Assembly (NCBI RefSeq): GCF_031877795.1
Contig: NC_133931.1
Span: 22,579,264 to 22,643,263 of the forward strand
Origin: Strix aluco
Taxonomy: Eukaryota > Chordata > Aves > Strigiformes > Strigidae
Length of the DNA stretch: 64,000 nucleotides
Reading direction: 5' to 3'
In this document: piece by piece, positions 370 through 54,530 of the stretch
How the letters are laid out: each line of letters opens with the position of its first letter
Position numbering within the stretch: position 1 is the first letter of the stretch
Notes under the pieces: model-generated
Database searches by the model: none
Seen by the model: only the letters and a program-made list of their open reading frames with translations
What the model was told of the DNA's origin: nothing
Position numbers and translations under genes: made by a program

Positions 370-657
370 TCCTCGCCTCGCCGCTCGCCCAGCAGCCCGG
401 TGGCCGTGCTCCCGCCTCCACCCCCAGCTGCCGCAGCCCCGCGCCCCCGGCCCGCTCCGGCTCTGTCTCTCTCTGTCTGTGCCCTCTCGTCCCAGCGCTG
501 CGCTGCGCTTCCCCCGCCGGTCGCCCCCGCAGCCTATGGCCCTGGAAGGCGCCGCTGCCGCCGCCTGTATTTCTGCTGTAGGTTCCCACATCCCTCTTTA
601 AAAATTCCGCCTAAAAAGAGAAGACGATTTACCAAATCTTTCGGGCCGTTATCTCAC
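370..657 (+). other. AZIN1: AZIN1 exon 1 (5' leader)
   Basis: The 3' boundary is the donor after ...TTATCTCAC, followed by GTGAGT at 658. The 5' end is only inferred from the TATA box. The exon contains one AUG uORF (536-601) and the first 18 codons of the polyamine-responsive uCC (from 604). The E-box CACGTG spans the exon/intron junction. Confidence 0.75.
536..601 (+). CDS. AUG-initiated uORF in AZIN1 exon 1 (21 codons)
   Basis: This is the only AUG I find in the inferred exon 1. It opens a 21-codon frame starting MALEGAAAAAC and ending IPL, with TAA at 599-601. The start context is mediocre (C at -3, G at +4). It is in a different frame from the uCC and stops two bases before the candidate AUU start at 604. 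Whether it is translated depends on the true transcription start. Confidence 0.45.
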   Translation: MALEGAAAAACISAVGSHIPL

Positions 658-3600
658 GTGAGTACCGGTGCCGGGGGTCCCGGCGCCCCCGGCCTCCCGC
701 CGGGCCGGGGCTCGGCGCCGCGGGGGAGGTGGCAGGCGGGAGGGAGGGAGGCAGGCAGGCGGCGACGCCCACCCTCAGCGCCGGAGCGGGCCGGAGCGTC
801 CCTTGACACTGGCGGCGGGAGGGAGTGGAAGGAGCTTTTCCCTCCCTGGGGCCTGGGGCTTGGGGAGGGGCAGGGGCAGGCCCTTGTTCCCCCCGGTGCA
901 AGGAGAGGAAGGGGAGCGGTGGCTGCGGCACCCGGGAAGGGCGGAGAGGCGCCCGGCGGGCAGCACAGCCGCCAGCCGCCGTGGCGGTGCCGGGCGGGGA
1001 GGGGGATGGGGCCGGTTCCTCCCGCTGCCCTTTCTTCGCCCGGCGGCGTGGGGCGAGACCGGCTGCCACCGGCGGCGGCAGATGGAGAGCGGCGGGATGA
1101 GTCAGAGCCGAGGCTCCCCCTCTCCCCGGCGCGCAGCGAGGCGCCGGGCGATGCGGGGCCGCCGCCCGGCAGGCGGGCGGGCGCCGGGGCCCCCCGCGCC
1201 CCGAAGGGCTGTGGTGGCGGCAGGCGGAGGGGGTCAGCGGCCGCCACGCTAACATGGCGGACAGCCCTGCGTGTGAGAGGCGGCGAGGCGGGAGGGGGAG
1301 GCCGGGGACCGGGGCGAGGGCTGCGCCGGGGCCGCCGTTCCGCCTTCTCCCCCAACCCCGCCGGGCGTGGGAGGGCGGTGGGGTCGCCGGCTCCGCGGGG
1401 AGCGGGAGCGGGGGCTCGGCGGCCGCCCTAACATGGCGGATTCCTGCGGAGGGGGGCTGTGTGGTGTCTTCCCTCTCAGCAGCCGGGGCAGTGCCCTGCG
1501 GCGGGAGACCCGTTCCCGCCGGGCGTTGCTACCCCTCGCCGTGCGCCTCTTCCTGGGGAGGGGGCGATGGGCGTCCTCGCCTGGACCCCCCCCCCATGGA
1601 GAGGGGCTGCCCCGGACCCCGGCGTGCCGTCCCCTCGCCCTGTGGCAGCTGCCCGGGCTCGGGATCACCGTCTCCCGTGCAGGATCCCTTCCCCTCGGTG
1701 TACCCGAACGCAGGAAGCTCCCTGGGGCCCGGGAGGAGCAGCTGTGTGACAGGCTTCGAGGCTGGCCTGGCTGACGGGCGGCAGAGAGGCTGGAGAGTGG
1801 CATGGCTGCGGTGCCTCTCCTCGCCTGATTCTCAGAGGCCATGTTGTGCGTCTGTAACCGTGACTATCCATCCGGGCTCCCACTGTCACGTTCCCCTTTT
1901 CCCCTCACCTGAGCTGCACATGCGGGTGCCTGCACGGGGCCTCACTGTGTCCCCCTCGGCATGGAGGAATGGGGGTCATGCCAAGGAGCAGGGTGGCAGC
2001 GTGAGCTGTCAGGACACTGCACAAGTTGTTAGGGCATTGCACAAATGACGCTTTCCCGGACGAGCGCTGGGATGACAGGGCAAATTGCCTTCACGCAGAG
2101 GGGCCGGGGGGTCCTCCAGCGCATGGAAAGTGGAGCCCTTCCTTCTTGTTAGCAGTTTCCTCCCTTTGCCAGGGGTGGCTGGTCATCTCAAGGACGCACG
2201 TTTTCCCCCTCCCCTTGGTCAGTCTGTTAGTGTAGCAGTAGCAGCTCTGGTGCTGCCAGCCCTTCTGGAAGTCTCAGCCTCCTTGGCTTGACTGCCTCTG
2301 TCGGTACTGTACTGGTCAGTAGTGCATGGTACTGTACGGCCGCTGCTGTACTGGTGGCTTTTAGAAAGTATGGAGAGGAGGGTCCAGTTGCTGCTCAGGT
2401 GCTGGCGGGGTGCATGTGTAAAGCACTTGGATGTCAGGGTATGCTGAGTGTGTGTGTGCTTGCTGCAGTGCTGTTCTGTGTTTGGGGAGAGGTCAGCAGA
2501 GGTGCCCATTACTGGTTGTAGCGGTGAGGTCAGCAGAGGTTCCTGTTACTGGTTGTAGAGGAGCTGGAAGTACCGTGTGGGAGTGGGGGGCTTGTGTGTG
2601 TGTAAGGGGGTGCAAACACAGGAACGTGGGGCAGCTGGCGTGGCTGAGGAGAATGCTGTTACAGCTTGTTACCAGACAGCACTGCAGGTCTTTTCCAGTT
2701 GGCAGTCTGGGCTCGTTCAGAGCCCAAGAAGCTGTGTATCTTGTGCTGGGGGGGACCCCAGTTGTAGTGAAGAGGGGAGTAAGTGAGTTTATATCTTTTG
2801 AGTCTTTCTGAAGTGCATCTCCTGCAGTGCAAAATCCTGCACAACTGACATGTGCCAGTAGGCAGAAGTGCTGCGTTTCAGACCTCTGCAGCAGTCTCTA
2901 GTGACCGAGCAGGATTTGATTGTGTAGTCCCAGTCGAATATAGCCGCCCAGAACGAAAGCATCGTGTGGTGTCCAATAAAGCGGGTTAGACCTGCCTACC
3001 CTCCCAGCCAGACGCATGGCTGGGTCTCCTGTGTGGTGGTGGGTTGGTGGCGGGGAGTGCTGCCCCACTTCTGCCCTCACCCCGGCTGCTGGATTTTTGG
3101 CTCTGAGGATACTGCACTTGCCCGCTATTCTTCCCTGGATAAATGCGGGAGGCAGCGGTGCTGGGGGGGAGGTGGGGGTTGTGAATAATGGTGATGGTAG
3201 GAGGGGTTTGTTCCAGTCTGGACTGGTCCAGTCTAGTTCTTTCCTTCCTGTCACCGTGTGAACAATGCTGCTGCTGCCGTGGCTGATGCTTGCGACACGG
3301 CAGCCCCCTCCCCGTGTGCTTCAGGCTGTGGTGAGCTCCCTTCCCTGCCTCCTCTGCCTGCCGTAGGCCGAGCCCCCCCGCAGCCGGCCGGACTGCTGCC
3401 CCCCCCCGTCCTTCCCGCCGGGCCTTGAGCTCTGGGGGAAGCTTGTTAAACTCCAGAAAAAGAGGGGTCTTTACAAGACTTTGGGAGGGGGAGGGTGGTG
3501 TTTGGTTGAACTGCAGTGGGAATGTTTCTCCCGTGGGGACAGTTTCACTGGAGGCCAGAGGCAGGCTTACCGCCTTTCAGCACTGCAGCCTGCCCCCAGC

Positions 3601-6570
3601 CCAGAGCTTGTGCCTCTGGCTGCTCCCTGTGCTGGAAGGCTGGTGCAGGTGTGTGTTCGCAGCAGTGCTGGGCTGTAAGGTCTGGAAATGATTCCATCTC
3701 TCCAATTAAAGGAGAGACGGAGTGCTCTGGAAGGAAATTAAGACTGTCCCTTCCTGAAAGGGAGACTTAATTGTGTAATGGACTAATTTGAGTATAATGG
3801 CAAATTTCAGTTCAAAATGCTGTTGATGTAGTGCAGGAGCAAGAGTGTGGTTGATGGGAGCATTCCTCGGGGATCTGTGCTCCCTTCAGGACCTGCTCTC
3901 GCCCGCCTCCCTACAACGCCCTGGCCCTGATCTGGAAAAGGCCTATTGTAATGGAAGAATAGCTGTTTTTTTGTGGACCAGGGTAACTTTGGTGCCTCTG
4001 AGTCTGTCAGTTGGTGTAAATGTGCAAGCTCATCGTACTGCTAGATTTTTAGGGTTTGGCTCATGGGTATTTTAGCTCAGGTCACTAAAGGGTCTCTTTT
4101 CAGAAACAGAACGATGCAGTGGATCGTTTTTTTCAAAGCAAATGAATCGGTGCCTGGTTTTACAGGCTTGTCTGCATCAGACATGGGGAGCTGAGGGGGC
4201 CCATGAACTGGAAAAAGCCTGGCCCCGACCGGCCTGCTGGCACTCATAGGGCTTGCAGTGGGGGTGCAGTTCTGGCAAAACTATGCACTGTGGATGACTG
4301 GGGGGTTGTTTTGTTCCTCAGGTGAGTGTTGCTGTTCAAGTATGAAGTACAGCGTTGCTGGTCGAGCTGCAGTCAAAACTTGAGGCACCTGTTAGTAGAG
4401 TATACTAACAGATGATATAGAAATACATGCATATGGTGTCACTTGAGTATTAAAAGGCAAAGCTGCCTTCCTGATTTTTTGCTGTTTAGCAAAGAATGTT
4501 TTTATACCTGCTTTAAGACCCTTAAACAATGAGCACTTCATTGTGGCTGATCACATACGCAATTTTTCAAAATCTGGGTTTGCCCATATGGGTTATGGAC
4601 ACCAAATACACTTCTGCTTAAAATGGTAGTCCTGCTCTGCCACAGTACAGCGAACTCTTTGTGCTGTTTAAAGCAGAGTAAAATTACTATGATTTGAATG
4701 GCTCAAGTTGTACCATTTTCCTCTCTGAATATTTAGTATTGGCAAACCTGCACAAACGAGAGCAGTCAGGCTATTTTCTATACATTTGTATAGATCCTTC
4801 AGATAAATAATTCTCATTTAAAATAAATTCTGAAGGGCAATTACAAATCAGCACAGCTTGTAGTTGACTATTGCTACAGAAAATGATTGGGTTTCATTCT
4901 AGCTCCATGGGAACTTTCACTGCACACTTCTTTCTTGGGATATGTGAGAATATTTATTGGAGTAGTACTGCAGGTGATATATGTCTGAAGCATGGCTTTT
5001 TAAGTTTTGCACTAAAGGTCATGTGCTCTCCCTAGAAGCACCTGTTTCAATGACTTGTTTTGCTGGGAAGGTAAACTTAATTCATAATCATTGGACAATT
5101 TGTATGAGTTCTTGAGTATAATTGAAACAGCACTAGAAAATAGTGCTACTAGTTAATTTGACAAAAGGAGAGTGTTGCCAGCTTTTAAAACTGTTGTGTG
5201 AATACTCTTAAGAACTAAATGTTGCTGACATCTTGCATTAGTGGAAGAAAGGAATAAGAGTAAATACACTGCATATACATTAATTCTAGCTGGAAAAATT
5301 CCTTAATATCTCAGTTTTGAAGTGCTGAGGTTTATTTTTAATGTTATGTGCTACCAAATGTTAATTTATATGATACAGCTGAAGAGATTGCTCTGTGGAG
5401 TTGCTGTAGAAGTTACCCTCAAGTTGCATTCACTCTGTGATTCACTACTTTACAGAGTATGCTAGTTCAGTTTTCTAATAGCAAGAATAAGTGGAACAAT
5501 ACACTTCAGAAGTTTGCTTAACTAATATGGTTGAAAACATGATCATTTGGGTTAGGTGATTCCCAGAAGCCAGGTTTTTGTAGTCAGCACATGTAGTCTC
5601 ATTTAAATAATGAGCAGCAAAGATTTATTTTTACAGTAGGTTCCCTGTTTCATGACATAGACCACAGTGAATTTGTAGAAACTTTGTTATATGTTGGGTT
5701 TACACGTGACCAGTTCTGTACTGTATTTAATTCCATGAAAATGACAGTTTCTTTTAGAAGAAATAACTTCTCAGTGGGTCTGGTTAAGGTTTCCTTGACT
5801 GCTTTTTATGTTCATTGTACTGTTCTGTGTGATTGTTTTACCTTAATTTGACTAAGCTAGACTTGTACTTTAAAATGCTACTTTGGTGTTGTGTGTAATA
5901 GTCTTTAAGGGCCAGCTGAACTGTTTCCTCATTCCTGAAGGCAAGCATAAGTTTCTTTTTGCTGTCTTGCTCATCTCTGGGTTTGTCTGTATGGTGTTCA
6001 GTTTCACTATATAAAGCACTATTTTTCACCCACATGCCGTGTTCATTCACAGCAGAGGAAGAAAGAACATGGCAAGGGAATTCTAAAATAGAAAGTGGCT
6101 ACAGGGTCAAGAACACTTCTGGGAGGGTAGTCGAGTATTAAGCATACTACCCTAAAGCAGGAGCTCTTTGCCCTTTAGTTTTGAAAGTCTTCCAGTTCAG
6201 ACTATGAAAGATAAGTACAAACAAGCAGTTTCATGTGTGTAATTCATGTGTTTTAGCAGTTCTTAATACATCTGACTTGATCTGGCTCAGAGTTTACATT
6301 CACTCTTGAAAACTGGGTCTTTTATGTGATTATAAACTTTCATGGTGGAGTGTTGCAAGCCTCCTTAAAAGCAGTACTGAAAAGACATTTGTTACATGTT
6401 TTAAGATAAAGCTTCTATTTTGTTCTGGCTATGAAATTTATTTTTGTATGCATTTTCTCCCACAGGGCAAAATCTCTGATCAAGTTTACAACTATCCAGA
6501 GGGCTTAGGAGAAGTGCTTTATAGAGAACAGTTCGACTTCAACGCTGAGCCACCTTGGGAACCTAGCTGA
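604..6570 (+). CDS. AZIN1 upstream conserved coding region (uCC), non-AUG start, PPW stall motif
   Basis: Joining 604-657 to 6466-6570 gives an uninterrupted 52-codon frame. It starts at a candidate AUU (604-606), passes through a basic stretch PKKRRRF, crosses the junction at SH|GK, and ends NAEPPWEPS before a stop at 6568-6570. Vertebrate AZIN1 mRNAs are known to carry a roughly 50-codon uCC starting at a near-cognate codon. High polyamine stalls ribosomes at its PPW (6550-6558); the queue behind favours initiation at the poor start and represses the main frame. The PPW and frame continuity across an intron are seen directly. AUU is chosen from knowledge of the family, since the frame stays open further upstream and has no in-frame AUG within the inferred leader. 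Confidence 0.85.
655..660. promoter_or_regulatory. Palindromic E-box CACGTG at exon 1 donor
   Basis: CACGTG is the core site for MYC/MAX and USF bHLH proteins. It lies about 285 bases into the inferred transcript, with its second half forming the GT of the splice donor. ODC1, in the same pathway, is a classical MYC target through intronic E-boxes. Binding here is inference. Confidence 0.4.
1250..1261 (+). promoter_or_regulatory. YY1-like motif, copy 1, in AZIN1 intron 1
   Basis: TAACATGGCGGA matches the YY1 core (ATGGCGG). An identical 12-mer recurs at 1429-1440. Both are on the + strand, downstream of exon 1, inside the CpG island. Confidence 0.4.
1429..1440 (+). promoter_or_regulatory. YY1-like motif, copy 2, in AZIN1 intron 1
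   Basis: The same 12-mer as at 1250-1261 occurs 179 bases further on. Occupied YY1 sites are commonly found just downstream of CpG-island transcription starts. Confidence 0.4.
2489..2562 (+). repeat. Two-copy 37-bp tandem duplication
   Basis: Units starting GAGGTCAGCAGAGGT begin at 2489 and 2526 and end in ACTGGTTGTAG, with a few mismatches between copies. It is a small local duplication in intron 1 with no evident function. Confidence 0.6.
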
Positions 6571-6603
6571 TGATAGTAGGGTTCCATCTCCTAACTTGTC
6601 CAT
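6466..6603 (+). other. AZIN1: AZIN1 exon 2 (5' leader, uCC 3' part)
   Basis: The exon lies between acceptor ...CTCCCACAG and donor CAT|GTAAGT and encodes the last 34 codons of the uCC including PPW. The uCC stop is the first of four tandem in-frame stops (6568-6579). The remaining 24 bases are non-coding. Confidence 0.88.
6568..6579 (+). promoter_or_regulatory. Four consecutive in-frame stop codons ending the uCC
   Basis: TGA TGA TAG TAG follows directly after the AGC serine codon in the uCC frame. It would allow almost no readthrough from the stall peptide. Confidence 0.85.
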
Positions 6604-8079: not shown

Positions 8080-8115
8080 GGTTGGACCAGATGGTCCTTG
8101 AGGTCTCTTCCAACC
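8080..8115 (+). mobile_element. 3' terminus of a CR1 LINE (severely 5'-truncated)
   Basis: The stretch GGTTGGACCAGATGGTCC followed by TTGAGGTCTCTTCCAACC is the typical 3' end of avian CR1 retrotransposons, including the short GGTTGGA/TCCAACC inverted repeat. Immediately downstream is the octamer tail. CR1 copies are usually 5'-truncated, and here only about 36 bases of body are recognisable. Insertion is in the sense orientation. Confidence 0.85.
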
Positions 8116-8438
8116 TGTGATTCTGTGATTCTGTGATTCTGTGATTCTGTGATTCTGTGATTCTGTGATTCTGTGATTCTGTGATTCTGTGATTCTGTGA
8201 TTCTGTGATTCTGTGATTCTGTGATTCTGTGATTCTGTGATTCTGTGATTCTGTGATTCTGTGATTCTGTGATTCTGTGATTCTGTGATTCTGTGATTCT
8301 GTGATTCTGTGATTCTGTGATTCTGTGATTCTGTGATTCTGTGATTCTGTGATTCTGTGATTCTGTGATTCTGTGATTCTGTGATTCTGTGATTCTGTGA
8401 TTCTGTGATTCTGTGATTCTGTGATTCTGTGATTCTGT
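8116..8438 (+). repeat. (TGTGATTC)n octamer satellite, about 40 perfect copies
   Basis: An uninterrupted 8-bp repeat of about 323 bases (about 40.4 units) follows the CR1 3' end. CR1 elements normally end in two to a few ATTCTRTG octamers, so this is a CR1 tail expanded into a long, apparently perfect array. Because 3 x 8 = 24, the minus strand reads open as a repeated ESQNHRIT peptide, which is an artefact. Copy number may be uncertain in an assembly. Confidence 0.95.
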
Positions 8439-14601: not shown

Positions 14602-14799
14602 TTTGTTGCATAATTTAAGGACCCGGATATAAGGCTTGGAAGCCCATCCCTTGTGTTTCTTGGTTTATGACTGTCGGCTTTGTGGAATACGGCTGAGATG
14701 AAAGGATTTCTTGAGGATGCAAATTACTCCATTGGTCTGTTGGATGAAGGAGCAACTCTTGCAGATGTTATTGACAACTGTATTTATGAACATACTCAT
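14602..14799 (+). CDS. AZIN1: AZIN1 exon 3 (start codon exon)
   Basis: The acceptor is TTTGTGCAG and the donor CAT|GTAAGT. It has 96 bases of leader, then ATG at 14698 and residues 1-34, ending in phase 0 at EHTH. The leader part contains a nine-codon uORF ending one base before the main AUG. Confidence 0.95.
14667..14696 (+). CDS. Nine-codon uORF just before the AZIN1 start
   Basis: The frame reads MTVGFVEYG and stops with TGA at 14694-14696, leaving one base before the main ATG at 14698. The uAUG context is weak (T at -3), so leaky scanning is likely. Reinitiation in the forward direction is implausible at this spacing. Translation is not shown by sequence alone. Confidence 0.5.
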
Positions 14800-17700
14800 G
14801 TAAGTTTTTCTGAGTTTTCCAAATCTTCTGGTGCAGTTTTCTAGGTCTTCAAACTAGGTCAAGATATTTAGCACTGATGAGCTAACAGCAACAGAGGAAC
14901 AGTCGACTAAAACTCACCTTATAAAGTAGTTCCCTCTTCTAATTCTACTACTTTGTTTGCCTTGGGCTGAATTCTGTTGGGGGAATTTGGGCAACAGTTG
15001 TTACCTCCCTGAGTGTGGCTAGCAGGAAAGCTTGTTGATGTAATTAAATACAGGTTCCCATCTCATTGTTCCAAGAGATTTTATTATCAGTGGGGTTTAG
15101 ACCAGGAACCTGAAATTGGGCAAGTGGATATCACTGAGTTAGAAGCTTTTTTGCTCTTTCCCTAAAAATATGGCAAAACTTAGACATATATGTATGCTGA
15201 GCCAGTTTAAAGCCATGTTTAAAATTTCTGTGGTCACAGTTGTATGGCTGTACACCTTCCTGTTACCCTTCTTTCTGTTGGAAACATGGGTACAAGCATA
15301 TTGTGAGGTGTTACCTTTTTTCTTTCGAGACAATAAACTTGTCTAAAAGCTATTAAGGTTTAGCAACCTACTGGAAAGAAACTTAAATAATTCTGTGTAT
15401 ACAGTAGTAATTTTATTGAATAAGGCTTCACTCGCTCCTTAAGAGGCAGGAAGATGTTGTAGCCTTTGATTTATAGACCAGGTTGTAGAAAGAGTGAGCT
15501 TTTAAAAAAAGTTTGAAGTTTCATTAAGCAAATCCTGTATCCTTAATATGCCATACCTATGAGTTGTTCACCTTTCCCTTTGTTTATCAGAACTAATGTT
15601 CAAATGCAAGTGCTCAACTATAGTAGAGCAAATAGCTAAATCCCATGGCCTTCTGAACTCAGGTGTAGGATTCCCAAATCCTGATTCCTAATATTCTTTT
15701 TCTGTCTAGCAAATAAATAGGTAAACTACTGGCAACATGTCATGTCTCCAACCACTGGCTGGCTCACAGAGGATAGCTGCCTCCTGCTGCTTTCATTTAC
15801 TCCTTTAGCTCAAGGGGTAGAGGCCTGTGCCATGGATCTAAAGCTCCAGATCCCATTCCTGCTGGTGACCCGTACAGGGGGTCAGTATGCTTCCACCCGA
15901 TGGAATTTCTATTTGTGTTTTTTAAACAGAAATAAAGACATTGTATACAATAAGCCACAACATAGTTGCGAAAGTCAAGTGCTAGAATTAACATTTGATG
16001 TACAGTCTTAATTCAGATTGATCCTATGTTTTGTGATGGTCTTTAGTTGATATACACTAGGCCATTCATTTACAGGAATTTTACTGAGTGCACATTATAA
16101 ACAAATATAGAATGATCTGTTTGGATTTTCATCCACTACATCCACATCATAACTTGGTATTGAGAAAGACTATGGTAACAGATGTACAAGGGGGATTGTT
16201 AACAGATTCCAGAAAAGTGTCTGTGCATTTTGTTAAAGATTCTGTGCTTAACTCTGCAACCTTAGCACACTGAGTTTAGTTTAGTTCTTAAAATTCTGTT
16301 GAACTTTGTGTTAATCAAGATGTGGAGAACAGTCTCAAACTTGACTTCCTGAATTAAAATACTATCAAAACAAATTTTTAGTAAAAAGAGCTATTAGCTA
16401 GATGTTAAAATAATGGTAGTGCCTTAGATTTATTCCTTGTATAAGAAGATATAAATAATGTTGAGACTGGAAGCTTTTGTCCCAGTGGATTTTCTTCCTC
16501 CAAAAAGTTGCAGACTCCTGAAAATACAAAGTTGGAAGAGATTTGTGACCTATTCTGTATTTTTCGATAAAATCAGCATTTGGCATTTAAGTAGTATCTT
16601 TTGCTCAGGAATCTCAGAATATTGTCTAAATAGCATTCATAATATCTCTGAAGTGGTAGGTATTCCCTTTGATTTTATTTTTTTTAAAGAACTAGTTCAA
16701 ATTGCTAGGTGAAAGTAAAAGCAAAAGTGTTGTACGAGGTCAAACCTAAAAGTTAATAGTAGAGTGAAAAAAGTACGTAATTCTTTAAGACTTTGTTTCA
16801 TGGGTTGTTTATGTTTTGACAGCAAACCCACAATTTCAGACATTTTATTTTCTTACTCTTCCTTTTTTTTAGACTGGAAAAAGAGCATTTTATGTTGGTG
16901 ATCTTGGAAAGCTTGTAAAGAAGAACATACAATGGCAGAACATGATGGCACCAATAAAACCATTTTATCCTGTAAGATGCAATTCTACTCCAGGTGTACT
17001 TGAAATTTTGGGAACTCTTGGTGTTGGATTTGCATGTTCCAGTAAAGTAAGTTTCTTTTCAGTGTGTCTTTTCTTCCATATATCTGCTGTTTGAAAATCA
17101 GCTTATTGCTATTAAGTGCCATGGTTATAAATTTAAATTCTAAATTCCTGTGTAACTGGCTGTTGAAAATATATACTTCTATCCTAGAAGCAGTGGGTAG
17201 TTTTCTGTTGAGTGTATTTGACTGTTTAGTACAGTACTAGAGCACATCTAATAAAAAATCAACAAAGCTAGCACACTGGACTGTGTCAAACTCTGGTATG
17301 CTCCTGTTTTTCAGTCTGAAATGGCATTGGTACAAGACCTGGGCATTTCTCCTGAAAACATTATATATACAAATCCTTGCAAGCAAGCTTCTCAGATAAA
17401 GTATGCAGCAAAAGCTGGGATAAACATCATGACTTGTGACAGTGATATTGAGCTGAAGAAAATTGCACGTAACCATCCAAATGCTAAGTAAGTGTCAAAA
17501 TTCTGGTTTTGTTCTTTATTTGGGGGAAACTTAATTTTGCCTGTATTCTGTGTTGAGTTGCAAGCAAGGTACATGGCTTCTTTAATACAATTCACCTGTA
17601 CCTGTTTTTCTCTTCTCTTTGTCCACTTTGAAGGTAGCTTTCAGGCAACTTTCCCCATACTGGGTCTCAGCTTCCTAATATGATAGTAAGACCCTTGTTT

Positions 17701-20700
17701 TGGGAGAAATCTTACATTTTGATTTAGTAGGGCAATCTTAATGTAAGAGTTTCAGTGATTAAAGTTCAGGTCTGGCACCTCATCTGCAAGTAAATCTTCC
17801 TGCTCTGTTGTGGCTTCACTGTTTTCTTTCAGGGCATTCTGTTTAGATAATAGTGGCTTGAGCTGAAGTCAGGGTTGAGACTATCAGCAAATGAGAGTGT
17901 GCATCAGGTCCCATCTAGGGTTTGGGCGTGCCCTGCAGATCTGTTAAATACACCTACAGGTATTTTCCCACTATTAAAACAGAAATTTGACTCCAGTTCT
18001 GGTTTTAGTCACTTCTGTATTGGCCCCAATGCTTTCTGTAAAGTGATCAGAGCTTATGTCCTGGTTGTTAAATATGAGAATTTTATTGCTGCCAATGTAT
18101 TGTGTTCTTTAGACTGATAGGCGCTCATGTCACTGTCATGTCCCTTACATATGAATACTTTGGCTGGGGGCCATACCTTCAAGAAATTTGGAGTCAGACC
18201 CCAAGTGAACATTACAGTGCTTTCCAGTGATTAACAAGATACAGCTTCCCACAGATGTCATCAGAGCACACTAAGAAACTGAATTCCTGACATCCTTTAC
18301 AAAGCCCTTGGTTCTAGGCAGTCCTTATTAGTGTCATGTCTTCTCCCAGAACTGTGGCCATAGTTGTAGAATTGGGAAGATTCTACCAAGTTCAGTATCT
18401 GGAGACTCTGCTCATCCCATGTAGCTACTTTTTTTTTTTTACTACCTCGAGTTCACTATTACTGTTGCTAGTGATTACACTTCATCCTCATGGAAGCCTG
18501 TCAGTGCTTTGCATACTGAAGAGTACTTCCTGCGTAAAGAATGTTATGTATGATAAATAATTTTGTGTGTAAAATGCTGGCCTTGACATACTATGTGCTT
18601 TTGAAAGCCTTAGCAATGCTAAAGCTCTTATGTCATTAGTGTTTTACCAGTTATCACTGGTGGTGTTAGTGTTTTGTTAGTTTTTATGTTGATTTTTCTC
18701 CTTGAGTCCAACAGCCTCTTTAAGAAGATGCTGTCTATGGAAACATCCACAACAAGAGGAGTTAGGATGCAGATTTTTCTTGAGCCAGAGGAATTGTAAA
18801 GTGGTGAGACAGAATGAAGGAGTTCCATGAGCTAGAGAAAACCAACATAAACTCTTTACTACTTTCAAGGATCCCATAGTCTTATTATTTGAAAAAGTTC
18901 CTGTTTACCAAGGACATGAAACTCAATATCTACAAAAGAACTGCAATTTGCTGTCTAAATTTTATAGAAACCTGATCTCCAGCTCTCCTATTGGGTAGAG
19001 ATTTGTTTGTTTTATTAGATTTCTCTTATTCAGGTCATTAAAACTTTGATGCTGAAATAACAGCTATGAGTTTTCTTCTTTCTGTTCCTTGGCATAGTTT
19101 CAAAGTCAAAGCCTTTATATAGCCTTGTTCTTGTGGTTGTTATAGCTAGGTTGTCTTTTTGTAGATGAAGCTAATTACATTAGAGAAAATCCTGCTTAGA
19201 AACCTGTAATTCTCATTTTCTGAAAATTCTTGTAACTTTCTGCACTAAACTCAGTAATGGGTGGGTCTCTTTATAATTGATGTTTCTGCCTTTAGAAGTC
19301 TCAGTAACTCAAATGATTGCAAATTCTTTTTTTAAGAAAGAGCAGAAATGTCAGAAAGGAGTGCTTAGTCTTTCATTTGTTTATACCTTTGGATTTTTCC
19401 AGGCAAAGTTTAATTGCTAAGGTTGCTGGTGTCCTGAGAGTTCCAGTAGAGGCATGGTTGTTATAAGTATCAATGCTTCATTTAAAATAAACAAAAAACC
19501 GAAACCCAAACACGCACATCCTCTAGCCCTGCTCTAACTGGCTGAAACCCAGGAAGAAGCAGCCTACTAGATTTCTAAAAATCAGAACTGCACTTTTCCA
19601 GTGGTTTGCACTAGAAAAATATCTTGACTCACTTATAATGCTGCTGTAATAATTCATCAATAAAACTTAACATTGGATGTCTAAGAAGTGGTTTTGTGTT
19701 ATCTTCATATGAGATACAAACTACTGTATTACGAATTTGAACTTTTCTACATTTTAAAGCATTTAACTTTTGACAATTTTTTGTTATATCAATTTTTCAA
19801 AATACTTTACAAAATGTTGTTTGACTACAGATTTCTTGAACAGAATTGTCTATGCTAGAGGAGAAGCAGGAAATGAGAGGCTAGTCACAGTTTCTCAAGA
19901 TGAAGTTGTATAAATTAAAATTATCAAAGATTGGTGGGCAACCTGTGTGAGAATTTAGGATTTTTGCTCTTTACAAGATGCATTTTAAACAAATCATGAG
20001 ACATTTGGAAAGGGCTTTTAGAAGTGAAGGTAGCTGTTAGGCCAACATGTATTTTGTAGTGGCTAGGCTAAGTTTTGCTTGTTGCATGTCTTGAAAAGAT
20101 CTATTTCATCTTGAGTGCAGAGCTTCTACCACTTGTTTAAGCTCTCCAGCTGGTTAACTGTCATGTTGTGCTCTCTGCAGTCTGCATACGTGCCATGACA
20201 CAACTTCTGTTACAGCATAGCTAATTGATGTTTATTGGGGCAACGGGGAGGAGTGACTTGGTGAACAGCAGTGTGAATTTGTGAGTTCTGGGGGTATACG
20301 TCTAGAAGATTTGATGTGAACATGCCTGTGCCACTGAACTGTTACTTTAGTATAGAAAACTGTCAACATTGGCACTCCAGTTTGCCAGACCTACTTGGAA
20401 TGAGGCTTTAACCAGAGGGAGGAAGCTGTCTCACTGCATAAGTCTGTAAGAGATGGTCCTTCTTGCCTCCCAGCTCCACAGGTGCCCTGGAAGAAGGGGC
20501 AGGGAATGAACTGACACCCCCCACCCCATCCCCAGTCCATGTGTTTAGCCAGGAGGAGAGGTGGAGGGATGTGGCCAGGGTGTGCTTTCAGTGCGTCAGC
20601 CTGGTGTTCTCCAGATGCTGGGCTTAACCAGATCTGGTACATGACTGACTGAAGGGGAATCTCCACACCCTCCTCTTGGCTAGAAAGGGGGACAGCGATG

Positions 20701-23700
20701 GGAAAAGCATATCATGGTCTTAATGGTTTTATGAGGAAGTATACTTTATTAGAAGGTAACATTCTCTTTTATTACAGCACTCAACAGACTCTTGCTGCTA
20801 CAAAAGAGTCTTAGTTGCTGCATTTCCAAATCCCTTGTCCTTGTTGGCTCCATGTTTTAGCCCCTAATTGCTAGTTTTTTCTCTGTACAGGATTGTTTTT
20901 ATTAGGTTCACTTGACTCATCCATCGATGGAGCTGGAGTGCTGACAACATAATCAACACACTTCTGACAGTCTTCAGGCTTCACATGTGCTGATGATGTA
21001 AACCAACTGCCCCAATCATCTTCCCCTTCTCTTAGGCTCTTACTGCACATTGCCACAGAAGACATTACTGCTGATGAGGAGATGAATATGAAGTTTGGCA
21101 CCACCCTGAAGAACTGTAGGCACCTCATGGAATGTGCTAAGGAGTTGGGAGTCCAAATAGTTGGTGTCAAGTGAGTAACTTTATTGTTCTCTGCTGGCTG
21201 CGCAGATGTTTGTATGGTGTACTGAAGACAGAATATAAAAGAATTTTTTTCCTCCTTTGGCACTATTTTACAGGGTTTTTTGAAAAAAAACACAAACCAA
21301 AAACTTCTGGATTGAGCTTTTGCTTGCAAGCAAAGTGCTGTATACAAGCAAAAAACAGTATGAAACAATGTAACTATTACAGACATCAAAGCAATTTGAA
21401 ATGGAGTATCAGAAATCCTGTCAGCATTAAAGCAAAGTGTAGAAGGCTCTCCTATTTTCTAGCTGTACTCTTGAACTTCTGTGGTAACTTGATTTGTATT
21501 TTTCCAGCAATAGACAGCATAACACAAGTGCTAGTATATCATAGAATGGCTTGGACAGACTTTGAACAAGATGAACATGGAGTTTGATTTTTGAGGAGTT
21601 AAGTCCTATGTCACTCTTTGATCATATCAAGACAAAATACTCAGATAAATTTTTGACTTGCAGATAGCAGGAATGAATCCTAGTGTGCTGAGAGCTTCCA
21701 AATGATCTGTGGTATTTGAATTTGAAGTTTAACAAAGACTTTACTATATGTAGGAAAAATGCATGCACAAGTGTTTGCTGTCTACCTGCAGCTACTAATG
21801 TATCACATGCTCATGAATGTTTGAAGAAAACAACCAAACAAAAGAGGGTGGGTCATCAAGACAGTAATTTAAAATGGAAGCCAGATTTTGAGGATTTAAA
21901 CCACAATTGTTTTAATGTAAATATCCTTGAAATTTATGTTAAATTAAAGCATAAACATACTATAGTCATTACCAATGACAAAGGTGTTTAAAAGTTAGAT
22001 TGTACTACTGAGAAAATGTACCTCTTATGTAATGTCTAACTTTAACAAAAAATCACATGGCTTTTGTGCATTTTTATTAAAAAAAAGAAAATAAAAATTG
22101 TGGATTCACGCAAGTAAGTTTAGAAAGTGACCCTTGCCTCAAAATGGCATTCCTTAAAGGAGTAGACTTGGAGTAGAGAGTGTTGTGGCTCAGATGGGTG
22201 TGTGTATGGTCTGTCCAGAACCAGCAGTCCATACTAGTCTTTAGGAAGCCTGTAGGAATGTTGGCGCTTGATTTAGCACCCCAGTTACTACTAGTATTAC
22301 GGCAGTACTTAAACCTTTTGGACAAGAAACCAGAGAGGATTCAGGAGCTTGTGGGAGGCATCAGGAATCTGCTTCTGATGACCTGCTCACCAGCTTGTTT
22401 GGCCTTGCTGTGAAACTAAGACCTGGCCTGGAGTGAAGAAGCTTCATAAGAGGATGGCAGTGGGACACACCTCTCCTCATCCTCTCCCAAATGGTGGGGA
22501 GAGTAGATAGCATGCACAGTACAGCCCTAGCTTGGAGGAGAAAACTGGGTGGCCCAGGAGAGAGGATATACAGGCAAGGCAATACAAAGTAGGTTGAGAG
22601 AGGGGAGACAGTATACAGGTATTGTGTTAACGTTGGCATCCACTGAAGAACAAACTTCAACCACTTTGATAGTGAAGACTGAAAGGTTCAGTAAATCTGT
22701 TCTTAGTTCTTAAAGATGAGAGTATTATAGGAGATTCTTTGCATTAAGAGCAAGACAAGTACAATCAAGTACAAATTCAATGGAATAGAAGGCCATCATC
22801 TTCTGAGCTTATTCTTTGCACAGTTACTGTATTATCATGCAAGCTTGTCCTGATCCACTTGGGAATGAATTGGTTCTGTTGCTATTTTAGATGGTGAAAC
22901 AGTTTGCTTGGTCTGAAAGCTACATGGTTTCAGTGTATTAACTGTGGTTTTATTTCTTTCAGATTTCATGTTTCGGGCTTTTGCAAGGAATTGCAAACGT
23001 ACATTCATGCTATATCTGATGCTCGGTGTGTGTTTGACATGGCTGTAAGTAGACAAATACACACACACATGCAATTGCTACAGTAGAGGATTCATTTTTT
23101 TGTAATCGTACTAACAAGCCAACTACGTTATTTCCAAAATACATCAATGTAGGAAATGGAACTTTTAGTAAGGGACTAAATACTCCATTGCAAGACATGT
23201 GGTAGAAGTAAAACAAACTTTATAATCCTAATTGTGGACAAAGGTTAATGAATACTGTCCCGCTGACCGGCACTAGCATTCTGTGATGTTTTCAAATAAA
23301 AAAATCAGCTTCCCCCTTTTGGTAAAGGCTTCTTGAAATTCAGATCTCAGTCCTGCAAATATGCAGTTGACATTTTTAAGTTATATTAAAATATTAAGTA
23401 TTTGTATGCTGGCATTTATCGTGATATAACCACTAATTTGGTGCATGTGATCTGAGGTTAATAACTAAGCATCATAAGAAATAAGTGTCATGTTGTGGGG
23501 GGGAGAATATCCAAATTTGCATGAAGAGGAATGGATTTGTTGGATGCTTCAGATGACTCTGAGTCTTACATCTTTTATATGTATTTCTCATATTGCAAAA
23601 TTCAAAAATCCATTCTCTAACATCTGGCTTCCTGTAAACAAGAAGCTTGTAAACTAGAGAAGACCGCAAGTCATTTTACTACTGTGGTTAGTGCATTAGC

Positions 23701-26700
23701 TGTGACTGGTAACACATGGATGGCAACAGAACTGAAGTTCTCACTGATCTTCGTGCAAATTCACTGTAGCAGTCCTGTCCCATAAGCACTATCCAAAGGA
23801 CTTGCATTGTATGTATTTGTAAATTCCTAAAACTTTCTTTTGTCACCACCCTGTTCAGCAAATATTGTCTGAATATAACAAACACCACAAGATGGGAGTT
23901 GACATTGCTGTGGGACTTCTACTTAAGAATTGTGTAACCAGCTTGTATTGACATCCCAATGCTATTACTACTAGGTTAAATGGAGCTGTACTAACTTTTA
24001 CAATGCTGATACTCCCTCACTAGACATACTCTGCTAGATATGCTCAAAAGTATATAAGTACATAGAAAACAACCACAGTAAGGAGAAAACCACAGTAAGG
24101 AGCAACAAAAAAATATTTTTATGGTTACAGTTGTCCGTGTACTTACATTCTGCCTATGCCTTTTAGGAAGAATTTGGCTTTAAGATGAACATGTTGGATA
24201 TTGGTGGGGGCTTCACAGGTTCAGAGCTTCAGCTGGAAGAGGTATGCAAATGTATTGGAAGTTGAAACTCTTAATTTTGATTTAGGAAGCTGAAGTGTTT
24301 AACCTTCGGTAGCTGAAACTAATCCTAAATTCCATGTTAGACTGTAAGTCGTGAGATCCAAATAATTGGTTTTATAGTCTTTATCATGGGTAGTGTAATC
24401 AGTCCTTGGAGGTGATCGTTCCTTTTTAATCCTGTTCATATTGGGTGAATGCTGACTTAAGTATGTCACAGATTAAATTACTATCCTAAGCCACCTTAAC
24501 AGTAGTAATTCAGGTTTTTTTGGCAGTTGACAGTTGTCCAGCTGGTTGCTCTATTGCATGGCTTGGACCAGAGTTGCTTAGCATGCTTTGGATCATAAAC
24601 CATATTGCTGCTGTATGAAAGTATGAAACTTTGCTGTAGAACTGAAGACTAAAGGGCTTGTTTTTACCTTTGCTTTGGCTAGCCTTTGATTTGGATCTTT
24701 AGTATTTAGTGGCACATAAAACAGAGTAACCTATTTACACTTATGTTGTCTTAAACACAAACTACTTTGAATGTAGGACAGTGAAAGTGATTCAGTGAAA
24801 AGCTACTGACAGCAGTCAGGGCTTTTCTTTCTTAGTTCTAATTGTTCTGCTACTTGTCCAAAATACTTGTTAATCTCTAAATATCTGGCTTAAGATTTGA
24901 ACATCAGTATTTAATAATTCATTCTGTTTCTAATACAACAGTATTCAGAACTGATCACAAAGGCTCTTTCCTTGTGTTTTGAGATTCATATGTAACTTTA
25001 CATTATCTGTGCTGCACAAACTTTGAAATGACTTGTACAGTCTCGAGTGTACCACAGTCTGTATTTTGGTTGGTAGGAGAGACTCTAGTACTCAGACCCA
25101 TGGTACTCAATCTTCAGTGTTTAGCAGAATGACCTATTTTCTTAACACTTCTGTAAATGTTGGACCTCTGGTAAGGGCACTTGTCAGAGAACAGAGAAAT
25201 GACTTAAACTTTTGGTGCATGTACTAGAACTGTTGCTGTCTGAAAGTGTGTGTGAGATACATAAGCTGAGTTTCATTGTTCTTACCCCTGACTCAATTTC
25301 CTAGGTTAATCATGTCATCAGGCCGTTGCTGGATGTCTACTTTCCTAAGGAATCAGGTGTTAATGTGATTGCAGAGCCTGGGTGTTACTATGTTTCATCT
25401 GCATTTACACTAGCAGTTAACATCATTGCAAAGAAGACTGTTGAGTATGATAAACTTCTTCCTTCTGGAGGTAAGGGTTGTATTTATCTCTTGCATGTTA
25501 CAAATCAGTACAGATAGCTGCCCACTTCTAGTCAGTCTAGTTTGTCTCAGCATGTATTTAATATGTTCCCTCATGCTTGCATTGTAATCTGCCTTTTGGG
25601 TTCTGACTGTATGTTGTCTGTGTATCTCACTTTCTCTGTTACATTTATGTAGCACTTGTTTCCTCATTAGGTTTGACTTCTTAATGGTTAAACCTATATT
25701 GGGTGCTTTACTGAAGGTGTATTAAAAGGTTCTGTATTAGAAGAACACATAGAGCAGTCTGCTTCTCTGCTAAAGTAGAAACTGGATTTATATTAATAGT
25801 GATTATTACTGAAAGTATTAATTTTACAGCTGAATTTATAATCTGGTCTCATACAGATTACTCTGCTCGTAATTTTCCCATTCCAGTATATATGGAACCC
25901 CCTTGTCAGGAGAAAGCAGTTGACTTAAGTAGGATTGCAAAAGGACTACTTATGACAAAAAATGCATGCAAGACAACTTCTTTTTTACTTCCAGTGGAGC
26001 AAACCAGGAATGATGATGAACCAGTATTTACATATTACATAAATGATGGTGTTTATGGTTCTTTTGCAAGTAAATTGTCTGAGAAACTGAATACTATCCC
26101 AGAGGTTCACAAGGTGAGTCCTTCTATATTCTTCAGAGATAGTCCTTATTATCCTTATATTTTTTATACATATTTAACTCTTCATGTGGATATAATTATT
26201 TATAAGATCGTCCTTATATAAATTTGAAAACTTACTTTTTCAATAAACTGAAGCCTGAATTACCTGGATTTCCATATAGAAATACAAGGAAGATGAGCCT
26301 CTGTTTGCAAGCAGCCTTTGGGGTCCATCCTGTGATGAGCTTGATCAAATTGTGGAAAACTGTCTTCTTCCCGAGTTGAGCGTTGGAGATTGGCTGATCT
26401 TTGGTAATATGGGTTCTGGTACCTTAGGTGAACAGTCTACCTTTAACGACTATCAGAGGCCACTGATTTACTACATGATGTCTTTCAGTGACTGGTAAGA
26501 AAATTCTCTTTGTAGTGGCAAGATTGTTTTCACTTCCTTCAAAGGTGTACACTTACAGCCAGATATAGATTACATTTGATGACAAATATAGGTAGATGCA
26601 ACTGAGTGTAAGAATGTGCCTTTTTAGTTTGTGGCTTTTTTTACTATTGTCTGACTTAGCTGAGAGTAAACCGAGAGCTGCAATAAAATGCCTACTTTGC

Positions 26701-27227
26701 TTTAAAGTTGACAAAGGAAGGCAAAATACCTCATGTCAACTGACTTTAGTGGTAGTTCTAAAGCCTTTTACTGTTTAACATCAACCTCTGAGCTTTCCTA
26801 ATACTAGTAATTGCAACTTGTGCACAGTAGTAGTACCATTGTTGTAGGCAGGAAGGGCAGTAATGCTGATGTGGTGATGGTGAGAGTTGGGTGACCTGTT
26901 CCAGTACTGAGGTAGCCAGGGCCCTGCGCCTCTGCCAGTGGAGAGTCATGGCCTTTGTCTGCCAGGCACCTGCAGAGCTGAAGTCTCCCTTCTGCTGAGA
27001 CTGGCGCCAACCTATCCGGGGCAGTAGATGTCAAATGCTATATTCAAGGCTGGTTTCTGATGTGAAATTGTACATGAAAACACCTTATTACAACACTCAT
27101 CCTTTTCTGCTGCAGGGATGAGATGCAAGATGCTGGAATTGCTTCAGACACATTGATGAAGAATTTCTTCTTTGTGCCTCCTTGCATTCAGCTGAGCCCA
27201 GAAGACCGCTTTTCCACTGCAGCTTAA
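14698..27227 (+). CDS. AZIN1: Antizyme inhibitor 1 (catalytically inactive ODC homologue)
   Basis: The coding sequence is join(14698-14799, 16873-17046, 17315-17487, 21036-21170, 22963-23044, 24167-24241, 25305-25470, 25995-26113, 26280-26494, 27116-27227), giving 450 residues; the human protein has 448. It starts [18 protein letters not shown] and ends in EDRFSTAA, as expected for AZIN1. The family is an ornithine decarboxylase fold: PLP-type TIM barrel at about 45-280, then a beta-rich C-terminal domain. It binds antizyme more tightly than ODC does, releasing ODC and stimulating polyamine synthesis and uptake. The antizyme-binding region corresponds to about 117-140. Several ODC active-site positions are lost: R69 for Lys69, A88 for Asp88, H154 for Arg154, C274 for Arg277 and G389 for Tyr389. 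H197, the GGG motif 235-237, C360 and D361 remain. Loss of catalysis is a family property inferred here from these residues. The start is the first AUG matching the family N-terminus. Confidence 0.96.
14800..16872 (+). other. AZIN1 intron 3
   Basis: This AT-rich intron includes a possible tRNA-derived SINE relic near 15805-15865. I recognise nothing else. It ends in a polypyrimidine tract CCTTTTTTTTAG. Confidence 0.8.
15805..15900 (+). mobile_element. Possible old tRNA-derived SINE relic
   Basis: TTAGCTCAAGGGGTAGAGG (15805-15823) resembles a Pol III A box as found in tRNA-derived SINEs. AGATCCCATTCC (from 15848) resembles a degraded B box at plausible spacing. It lacks intact tRNA folding and a clear tail, so I treat it as a decayed repeat, not a tRNA gene. 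The boundaries are approximate. Confidence 0.35.
16873..17046 (+). CDS. AZIN1: AZIN1 exon 4, residues 35-92
   Basis: Phase 0 at both ends. It encodes [17 protein letters not shown] and ends GFACSSK. Residue 69, the PLP-binding lysine position of ODC, is Arg (AGA at 16975-16977). Residue 88 is Ala where ODC has Asp. Confidence 0.95.
17315..17487 (+). CDS. AZIN1: AZIN1 exon 5, residues 93-149 (antizyme-binding region)
   Basis: The acceptor is GTTTTTCAG and the donor GCTAA|GTAAGT. It encodes [10 protein letters not shown] through ARNHPNA and two bases of codon 150. Residues about 117-140, including [14 protein letters not shown], match the antizyme-binding element of the ODC family. Confidence 0.95.
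17488..21035 (+). other. AZIN1 intron 5
   Basis: This 3.5-kb AT-rich intron ends in CCCCTTCTCTTAG. I see no recognisable element. A run of Ts lies near 18430. Intron 4 (17047-17314) is short and featureless. Confidence 0.75.
21036..21170 (+). CDS. AZIN1: AZIN1 exon 6, residues 150-194
   Basis: It completes codon 150 (Lys) and encodes LLLHIATED through [10 protein letters not shown]. The ODC Arg154 equivalent is His. It ends two bases into codon 195, before GTGAGT. Confidence 0.95.
21171..22962 (+). other. AZIN1 intron 6
   Basis: The intron is AT-rich and ends in TATTTCTTTCAG. A short stretch at about 21537-21560 (ATCATAGAATGGCTTGG) resembles the reverse complement of a CR1 3' end, too short to call firmly. 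Nothing else is recognised. Confidence 0.7.
22963..23044 (+). CDS. AZIN1: AZIN1 exon 7, residues 195-222
   Basis: It encodes [20 protein letters not shown] and RCVFDMA. His197, the PLP-stacking histidine of the ODC family, is retained. Phase 0 at the 3' end before GTAAGT. Confidence 0.95.
24167..24241 (+). CDS. AZIN1: AZIN1 exon 8, residues 223-247
   Basis: It encodes [20 protein letters not shown] and LQLEE. The glycine loop GGG (235-237) that binds cofactor phosphate in ODC is intact. The donor is GAG|GTATGC. Introns 7 (23045-24166) and 8 (24242-25304) show no recognisable element. Confidence 0.95.
25305..25470 (+). CDS. AZIN1: AZIN1 exon 9, residues 248-302
   Basis: It encodes [18 protein letters not shown] to YDKLLPSG and one base of codon 303. 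EPGCYYV replaces the ODC EPGRYYV motif, so the phosphate-contacting Arg is Cys here. Confidence 0.95.
25995..26113 (+). CDS. AZIN1: AZIN1 exon 10, residues 303-342
   Basis: It encodes [18 protein letters not shown] to NTIPEVHK. The acceptor is TTACTTCCAG and the donor AAG|GTGAGT. Two extra residues relative to the human protein lie in or near exons 9-10. Introns 9 (25471-25994) and 10 (26114-26279) are short and plain. Confidence 0.95.
26280..26494 (+). CDS. AZIN1: AZIN1 exon 11, residues 343-413
   Basis: It encodes [20 protein letters not shown] through MMSFSD. Cys360 and Asp361 of the ODC active site are kept, while the ODC Tyr389 position is Gly. Codon 369 (AAC, 26358-26360) is Asn where human AZIN1 has the edited Ser367. 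It ends two bases into a Trp codon. Confidence 0.95.
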
Positions 27228-48853: not shown

Positions 48854-50924
48854 GTGAGTGGTCGGCTCCGCCCGGCGGGCCCTGTGACGGGGGAGGAAGC
48901 GACCACGGCACCCCCGGGGGCGTGTGGGGCACGGGGTGTCCTGAGGTGGGGGTGGGGGAGTCCCTGGGGATGGCGCGACAGGGGGATCCCGGGGGGACGC
49001 GCGGGGACGGCCGGCGGGCCGGGGAAGAGGAGGGGGCACGGGTGGGAGATCGGACCGAGGCGGCGGCTGGAGGGAGCGAGCCGCGGCGGGGGGACCCGCG
49101 CTGCTGCGTGGCCTGCGGGGCGAGAGGGACGAGTGGGGCAGCCCCCGCGGGGAGAGCCCCCACTGGGCAGGCGGGCGAGGGAAGCCGCGGGAGGGAGAGG
49201 AGCTACCGGGAGCCTGTTGGCCCCGCCGGGCCGGCGACGTGCAGCCTGTGTGCGTGCGTGCCCGGGCGCGCTCGGCGCGGGGGAGCGGCAGGCTCCGCGG
49301 CTGCACGTGCCAGGCGGCGGCGGCGGCGAGGAGGGAGCCGGGGGGATCCCGGCGCGGCGGGATCCCGGCGCGGCGGGACCTCGCGAGGCTCCGCCGCCAG
49401 GAGCGGGTGGGCGGTGCGGAGGCCGGGAAGCGGGCTGGCGCTGCGGGGAAGAGCCACCCGCAGCCCCCCCCCCGCCCCCGCCTGCGGAGCCGAGCCGTGG
49501 GCCCGCTCCCCGCGGCGACGCCGCTTCGTTCCGCTCCGCTCCGCTCCACTCCCCTTCCCTTCCCCCGCGGCGGGAGGCGCCGGGCGTGGCGGCGCCGACC
49601 CCCGCCCGCCTGTGAGGCGAGGCGGTGTGGTTCTCCCGGCCGGGCTTTCCTCCGCCCCGCGCGGCCCCGGGGGGCGGGGCGGGTCGGCCCGGCCCTGCCC
49701 TGCCCTGCCGGCGGTGGCGGGCTCCCTTCCTGCCGGCCGCCGCCAGGCTGAAGGCGGGGGCGGCCGCGCGCGGGGAACTAGGTGAAAGGTCGGCGCGCGG
49801 CGGTACCCGCGCGCCGCCGCCGATCACGCTTTGTTCGCATGCCCCCGCCCCGGGCCGCGCCTCGATCGGCGCCGGCCAATGGGCGCCGGCGCGGCGCGGC
49901 GCGGGGAGCCAATAGGGGCGGGCGGGGGCGGGCGGCGGGGGAGCGCTGGCGGGGTGCGCTGAGGTGAAAGTGGCGCGCGCCCAACGGCCGGGGGCGGGGC
50001 GCGGAGCGCGGGCCCCGCCCCCTCAGCCCGCCGCCGTGGGGGCTGCTGGGGGGGGCAGCTGGTGGCGGCCGCTGCTGGCGGCCGCTGCTGGCGGCCGGCG
50101 CCGGTCTCTGCCCCATCCGCCCGGCGCCGGCCGGGTCTCCTCAGAAAGGTGCAGCTTACCCGTGACTGCAGCTGCCTGGGGACGCGGCTTCCAGAAACGC
50201 GGCTTTTCCACCCGGGCCATCTCAGCGGGGCGGGGGGGCGGGGCGGAGGTGGAACTCGCCAGCAGCGCCGGACACCATCCCTCAGAAACCAAAAGCTGTG
50301 TCAGGGATAAGGGTGGAACACACTGCTTCGGGGGCTTCCTGCGTGGGTTGGTTCCGTGTGGTGATCGGTCAGAGAGGGAATATATATAGTTCAGTTCTCC
50401 AAGTTGGTGACTTTCCTTGCGTGGACCAATGCGTGAGACCTTTTGAGTATTTTCTGGAACATTTTTGGTAGCCAATACCTTTTGAAGAAAATGTGCATCA
50501 GTTCCAATACGGTCCTTTCTCGTGTGTCAAAATAAGCACAATACTGAGGGCTGTGTTTAAAGCGAAAATGGAAGGAGGGTGGGATGGGGGAGGAAGTTTT
50601 GTTGTCTTTTTTTGGGGTGAAGATTTTTGTTAAACGTTCAGACACAACACTTGCAATGTGGAATGACTTCAACTGTTGCTTAAGATTTGTGGGGAGTTCT
50701 TTTGTCTCAAGAAAATGCATAATCTTCACCAGATGGTCAGATTTTCCTACAAACAACTTCGTAAAATTTTTATATAAATAAGAAAGAGGGCAGGAAAATA
50801 CAGGTATACCCCCCACATGACCGAGTGTATTTACCTTGCACAGGTTGCCTTCTTATAAGTAACTGCAAAATATTCAAACTCAGCATCAGGTTTAAAATTC
50901 CATTTTTTCCTCTAACCAAAACAG
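48854..50924 (+). other. KLF10 intron 1
   Basis: Most of it is CpG island. A second cluster of promoter-like elements lies near 49876-49942. From about 50340 it is AT-rich. It ends in TCTAACCAAAACAG. Confidence 0.75.
49876..50148 (+). promoter_or_regulatory. Possible second KLF10 promoter and alternative first exon
   Basis: Direct CCAAT boxes lie at 49876-49880 and 49909-49913, followed by dense GC boxes. About 200 bases downstream a plausible donor (GAAAG|GTGCAG at 50148/50149) could splice to exon 2. No ATG in frame is visible in the interval, so such an exon would be non-coding. The elements could instead drive an antisense transcript. Confidence 0.3.
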
Positions 50925-50933
50925 GAGGAAGAA

Positions 50934-54530
<3,597 letters not shown>

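Follow-up and report, generated by a model that had tools for sequence, protein, structure and literature searches.

A split, non-AUG upstream frame ending in Pro-Pro-Trp in the predicted AZIN1 leader of the owl Strix aluco, a probable orthologue of the polyamine-responsive vertebrate uCC

All vertebrate antizyme inhibitor (AzI) mRNAs available in 2008 were reported to carry an upstream frame of about 50 codons, the uCC, with a conserved AUU, and in a mouse uCC reporter either the change of this AUU to UUU or an alteration of the last ten sense codons essentially abolished repression by polyamines (PMC4458265). According to later papers, high polyamine causes ribosomes to stall at a Pro-Pro-Trp (PPW) motif and to queue back to the AUU (PMC11058473, PMC9082881, PMC11550727), with eIF5A as the sensor (PMC8705083), and a model of queuing that includes the PPW end has also been presented (PMC10855120). 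A plot of uORF conservation across 46-vertebrate alignments includes AZIN1, and the accompanying text mentions the AUU uORF (PMC4383229). The human peptide is printed as IPPKKRRRFTRLFGPLSHGELSDQVYNYPEGLGEVLYREQFDFNAEPPWEPS in the legend of S5 Fig of PMC9648851. In the portions of the AZIN1 uORF literature that were found, no bird uCC is named, and the combination of AZIN1, uORF and chicken led to a passage mentioning the mouse AZIN1 case (PMC7530721). No paper matched any of six DNA strings that were queried against the literature.

The window analysed here is a stretch of 64,000 nucleotides from Strix aluco (NC_133931.1), and all genes, exons and reading frames described below lie on its forward strand. 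An earlier note had proposed that joining position 657 to position 6466 gives an open frame without an in-frame AUG that ends in PPWEPS and a stop, and these coordinates proved exact. The spliced frame has 52 codons, from ATT 604 to TGA 6568-6570, and reads IPPKKRRRFTKSFGPLSHGKISDQVYNYPEGLGEVLYREQFDFNAEPPWEPS; four consecutive in-frame stops stand at its end (TGA TGA TAG TAG, 6568 to 6579). Its first part covers codons 1 to 18 (604 to 657, from ATT 604-606, the start expected from the human AUU, to the exon 1 donor), and its second part covers codons 19 to 52 and the stop (6466 to 6570), with the published stall motif encoded by CCA CCT TGG at 6550 to 6558. No in-frame ATG occurs between the first base of the window and the stop, so that length and codon content agree with the description of the AZIN1 uCC as about 50 codons and AUG-less. 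The G+C content falls from 72% in 366-603 to 43% in 604-657, and the segment contributed by exon 2 has 46%. Two leader stretches folded at -19.9 and -16.9 kcal/mol, values with no shuffled control behind them. Pfam gave no match for the uCC at E<=0.001.

The splice signals agree with a division of the frame by a 5.8-kb intron, as had also been suggested. The intervening 5808 nt (658 to 6465) are bounded by canonical GT-AG sites, exon 1 ending at 657 with CAC/GTGAGT and exon 2 beginning at 6466 after TTCTCCCACAG, and the peptide match to human described below runs over the junction without a gap. From these features, the joining of 657 to 6466 into a single mRNA frame is predicted. GTRAGT sites in the first 6700 bases are found at 658, 2779, 2783, 4322 and 6604. 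The last of these would be the donor (CAT/GTAAGT) of a predicted leader exon 2 (6466 to 6603). When the owl's own genome was searched at the DNA level with the exons joined, the matches listed at E<=0.001 were the two exons themselves; among the best candidates scored in that genome, none was a retrocopy of the joined sequence. A TATAAG box can be read at 339 to 344. If, as we assume, transcription starts below it near 366-372, a start near 366 would give a leader of about 526 nt.

Downstream lies a 450-aa main ORF (14698 to 27227) in ten coding exons with GT-AG introns: 14698-14799, 16873-17046, 17315-17487, 21036-21170, 22963-23044, 24167-24241, 25305-25470, 25995-26113, 26280-26494 and 27116-27227. 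Its best matches among solved structures are antizyme inhibitor 1 (3btn, 815 bits; 4zgz, 799 bits), and the best ornithine decarboxylase structure follows far behind at 473 bits. The first coding segment belongs to exon 3 (14602 to 14799), which would contribute 96 nt of leader ahead of the main ORF start, its acceptor being predicted from splice signals. With the two leader exons, AZIN1 would have twelve exons in total, and the uCC would lie in its 5' leader as delimited by these signals. Within intron 2, TRF detected a perfect 8-bp tandem array, CTGTGATT repeated 40.5 times (8115-8438); the stretch directly before it appears to resemble the 3' terminus of an avian CR1 element. Elsewhere in the window, at about 50900-53300, there is a C2H2 zinc finger gene. 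Pfam recognises zinc fingers in it, with the finger of the first piece scoring below the cut-off. From its sequence this gene is presumably KLF10. A KLF10 chain is among the best 60 of its 79 PDB matches, the top ones being other zinc finger proteins.

The owl peptide was then compared with the printed human uCC (PMC9648851). The two are of equal length, align without gaps, share the first and the last residue and are identical at 48 of 52 positions. The four substitutions (R11K, L12S, E20K and L21I) flank the exon junction between codons 18 and 19, and residues 22-52, the last 31, are identical. In both peptides 46 codons separate the first codon from PPW. The BLOSUM62 score of the alignment is 274, against 10,000 shuffles that average -51 and reach 38 at most, which shows that the match is not due to chance. 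Each exon piece is also distinctive by itself. Over about 128,000 six-frame positions in the window, the exon 1 piece matches human at 16 of 18 residues (next best 8) and the exon 2 piece at 32 of 34 (next best 10). When the peptide was used as a query against the owl's own assembly (1.41 Gb), four matches were listed at E<=10, of which two are the uCC exons (E 9.4e-18 and 0.001) and the other two are at chance level (E 2.3 and 7.9). The identification as the AZIN1 uCC made in the earlier note is thus upheld by the human match and by the position of the frame ahead of a clear AZIN1 coding sequence.

Constraint on the uCC appears to be no weaker than that on the protein under its putative control. 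Against a provisional human AZIN1 sequence, the main ORF is identical at 351 of 448 aligned residues (78%), with two further gap columns, as compared with 92% for the uCC (Fisher's exact test, p=0.017, with this provisional sequence). The difference is modest, because 22 of 399 main-ORF windows, each 52 columns long, likewise reach 48 identities.

The open frame would be of little weight if considered alone. When the 156-nt uCC stretch was shuffled by mononucleotides, 898 of 20,000 versions (about 4.5%) were likewise open, so an open frame of this length is, by itself, weak evidence. The motif proves nothing by itself either, since scanning for DNA that encodes Pro-Pro-Trp-Glu-Pro (CCNCCNTGGGARCC) turned up 363 matches over both strands, compared with 222 for a reversed control. 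A chance open frame or a mis-joining of exons was nevertheless ruled out by the human peptide match, given the gulf between its score and the best shuffle, and we consider its probability negligible. It is also very improbable that the conservation reflects an element acting at the nucleotide level, such as an RNA or splicing signal, rather than a translated peptide. Such a reading draws on the fact that the identity evidence is a comparison with the human peptide and not with the DNA of a second vertebrate; the scan made on that side, of viral contigs with the 52-residue peptide, gave 18 pattern matches and no relative. However, the conserved block holds the frame exactly over the intron and ends at the stop, it equals the peptide whose start and last ten codons mattered in the mouse reporter (PMC4458265), and Rfam returned no family at gathering score anywhere in the window.

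The AUG-initiated uORFs bear on a further alternative, in which termination followed by restart also, or mainly, controls the leader. Three AUG uORFs are present in the predicted leader, each with one end abutting or overlapping the adjacent frame. The first (536 to 601; 21 codons, MALEGAAAAACISAVGSHIPL and stop; context cagcctATGG) is in another frame, is part of the mRNA only if transcription starts upstream of 536, and has a stop that ends 2 nt ahead of ATT 604. The second (16 codons, MIVGFHLLTCPFCCII and stop) would be formed by splicing of 6570-6603 to 14602-14618, and its start codon begins within the uCC stop (UGAUG). The third (14667 to 14696; nine codons, MTVGFVEYG and stop) has a weak context (tggtttATGA) and a stop that ends 1 nt ahead of the main ATG. 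The uORFs 536-601 and 14667-14696 could thereby deliver ribosomes to the AUU and to the main AUG, making the polyamine response hinge on reinitiation in addition to leaky scanning. Such abutments are mildly unusual: in 5000 dinucleotide shuffles a stop fell 0-3 nt before the AUU in 96 cases and before the main AUG in 325, though the test is weak, having been made post hoc, after the sequence had been seen. Restart very soon after termination is usually poor, which counts against this alternative, and we regard it as unlikely. It is equally doubtful that the bird uCC sits within a chain of frames in which termination-coupled restart feeds or bypasses it; if it did, the restart chain would alter the steepness of the AZIN1 response to polyamines. 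Counting against the uCC mechanism as published is the AUG uORF whose stop lies 2 nt short of the AUU, a feature that does not occur in the available portions of the published scheme.

The position at which translation of the uCC begins is not set by the limits of the frame, as no in-frame stop occurs upstream of 604 back to the first base of the window. From 366 onwards the frame contains the near-cognate codons GTG 400, GTG 406, CTG 463, AGG 547, CTG 565, AGG 580, ATT 604, AAG 616 and ATC 6472, counted up to 60 nt beyond the ATT. We place the start at the candidate ATT 604-606 (context ttaaaaATTc) on the strength of the human peptide together with the AUU of the uCC in print. Another start, for instance CTG 565, may also be compatible with a frame that is open upstream.

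Taken together, these features indicate that the locus carries the avian orthologue of the uCC known from vertebrate AZIN1, an upstream frame that starts without AUG and responds to polyamines; we assign this reading a probability of about 95%. The earlier note had also held that PPW stalling under high polyamine drives the choice of a near-cognate start, and this agrees with the mechanism as described in PMC11058473, PMC9082881, PMC8705083, PMC10855120 and PMC11550727. AUU initiation, stalling, queuing and the polyamine response are taken over from that published work, mainly on mammals, and polyamine sensing in the owl would follow by orthology. Most scanning ribosomes would skip AUU 604, and antizyme inhibitor would be made. 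High polyamines would blunt the help of eIF5A at Pro-Pro-Trp (6550-6558), so that a ribosome started at the AUU stalls. The queue behind it would span the 138 nt back to the AUU and cause more uCC starts. AZIN1 output would then go down, antizyme would be freed, and polyamine synthesis and uptake would fall. The unchanged length, the PPW spacing and the identity of the last 31 residues fit a mechanism for which both the distance and the C-terminal peptide matter.

The element itself is already known and has been in print since 2008, which its supposed absence from most annotation, put forward in the earlier note, would not change. The owl adds one more genome, an avian one, to those that bear out this published example of a metabolite-sensing uORF without an AUG start. 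Its practical value lies in annotation, as a split, non-AUG frame of this kind belongs in AZIN1 gene models.

The owl frame shares with the known AZIN1 uCC its position in the AZIN1 leader, the AUU, the 52 codons without AUG, the PPWEPS end and the 46-codon spacing, and differs from the human peptide only by the four substitutions listed above. Two published descriptions deviate from both sequences in detail. PMC9082881 places the AUU "~30 codons" upstream, whereas the printed human peptide and the owl frame both have 46 codons to PPW, and PMC10855120 gives the motif as PPWxxPS-stop, whereas both peptides end in PPWEPS. Among other polyamine genes, the AMD1 MAGDIS uORF (PMC9648851) is also a stalling uORF but has six residues and an unrelated sequence. 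The yeast HOL1 uORF (PMC10855120, PMC11550727) likewise shows a polyamine- and eIF5A-dependent stall at the uORF end, with a ribosome queue and repression of a polyamine gene. There the gene is a different one and the stall is at Pro-Ser-stop termination, an ending that is also present in the owl uCC.
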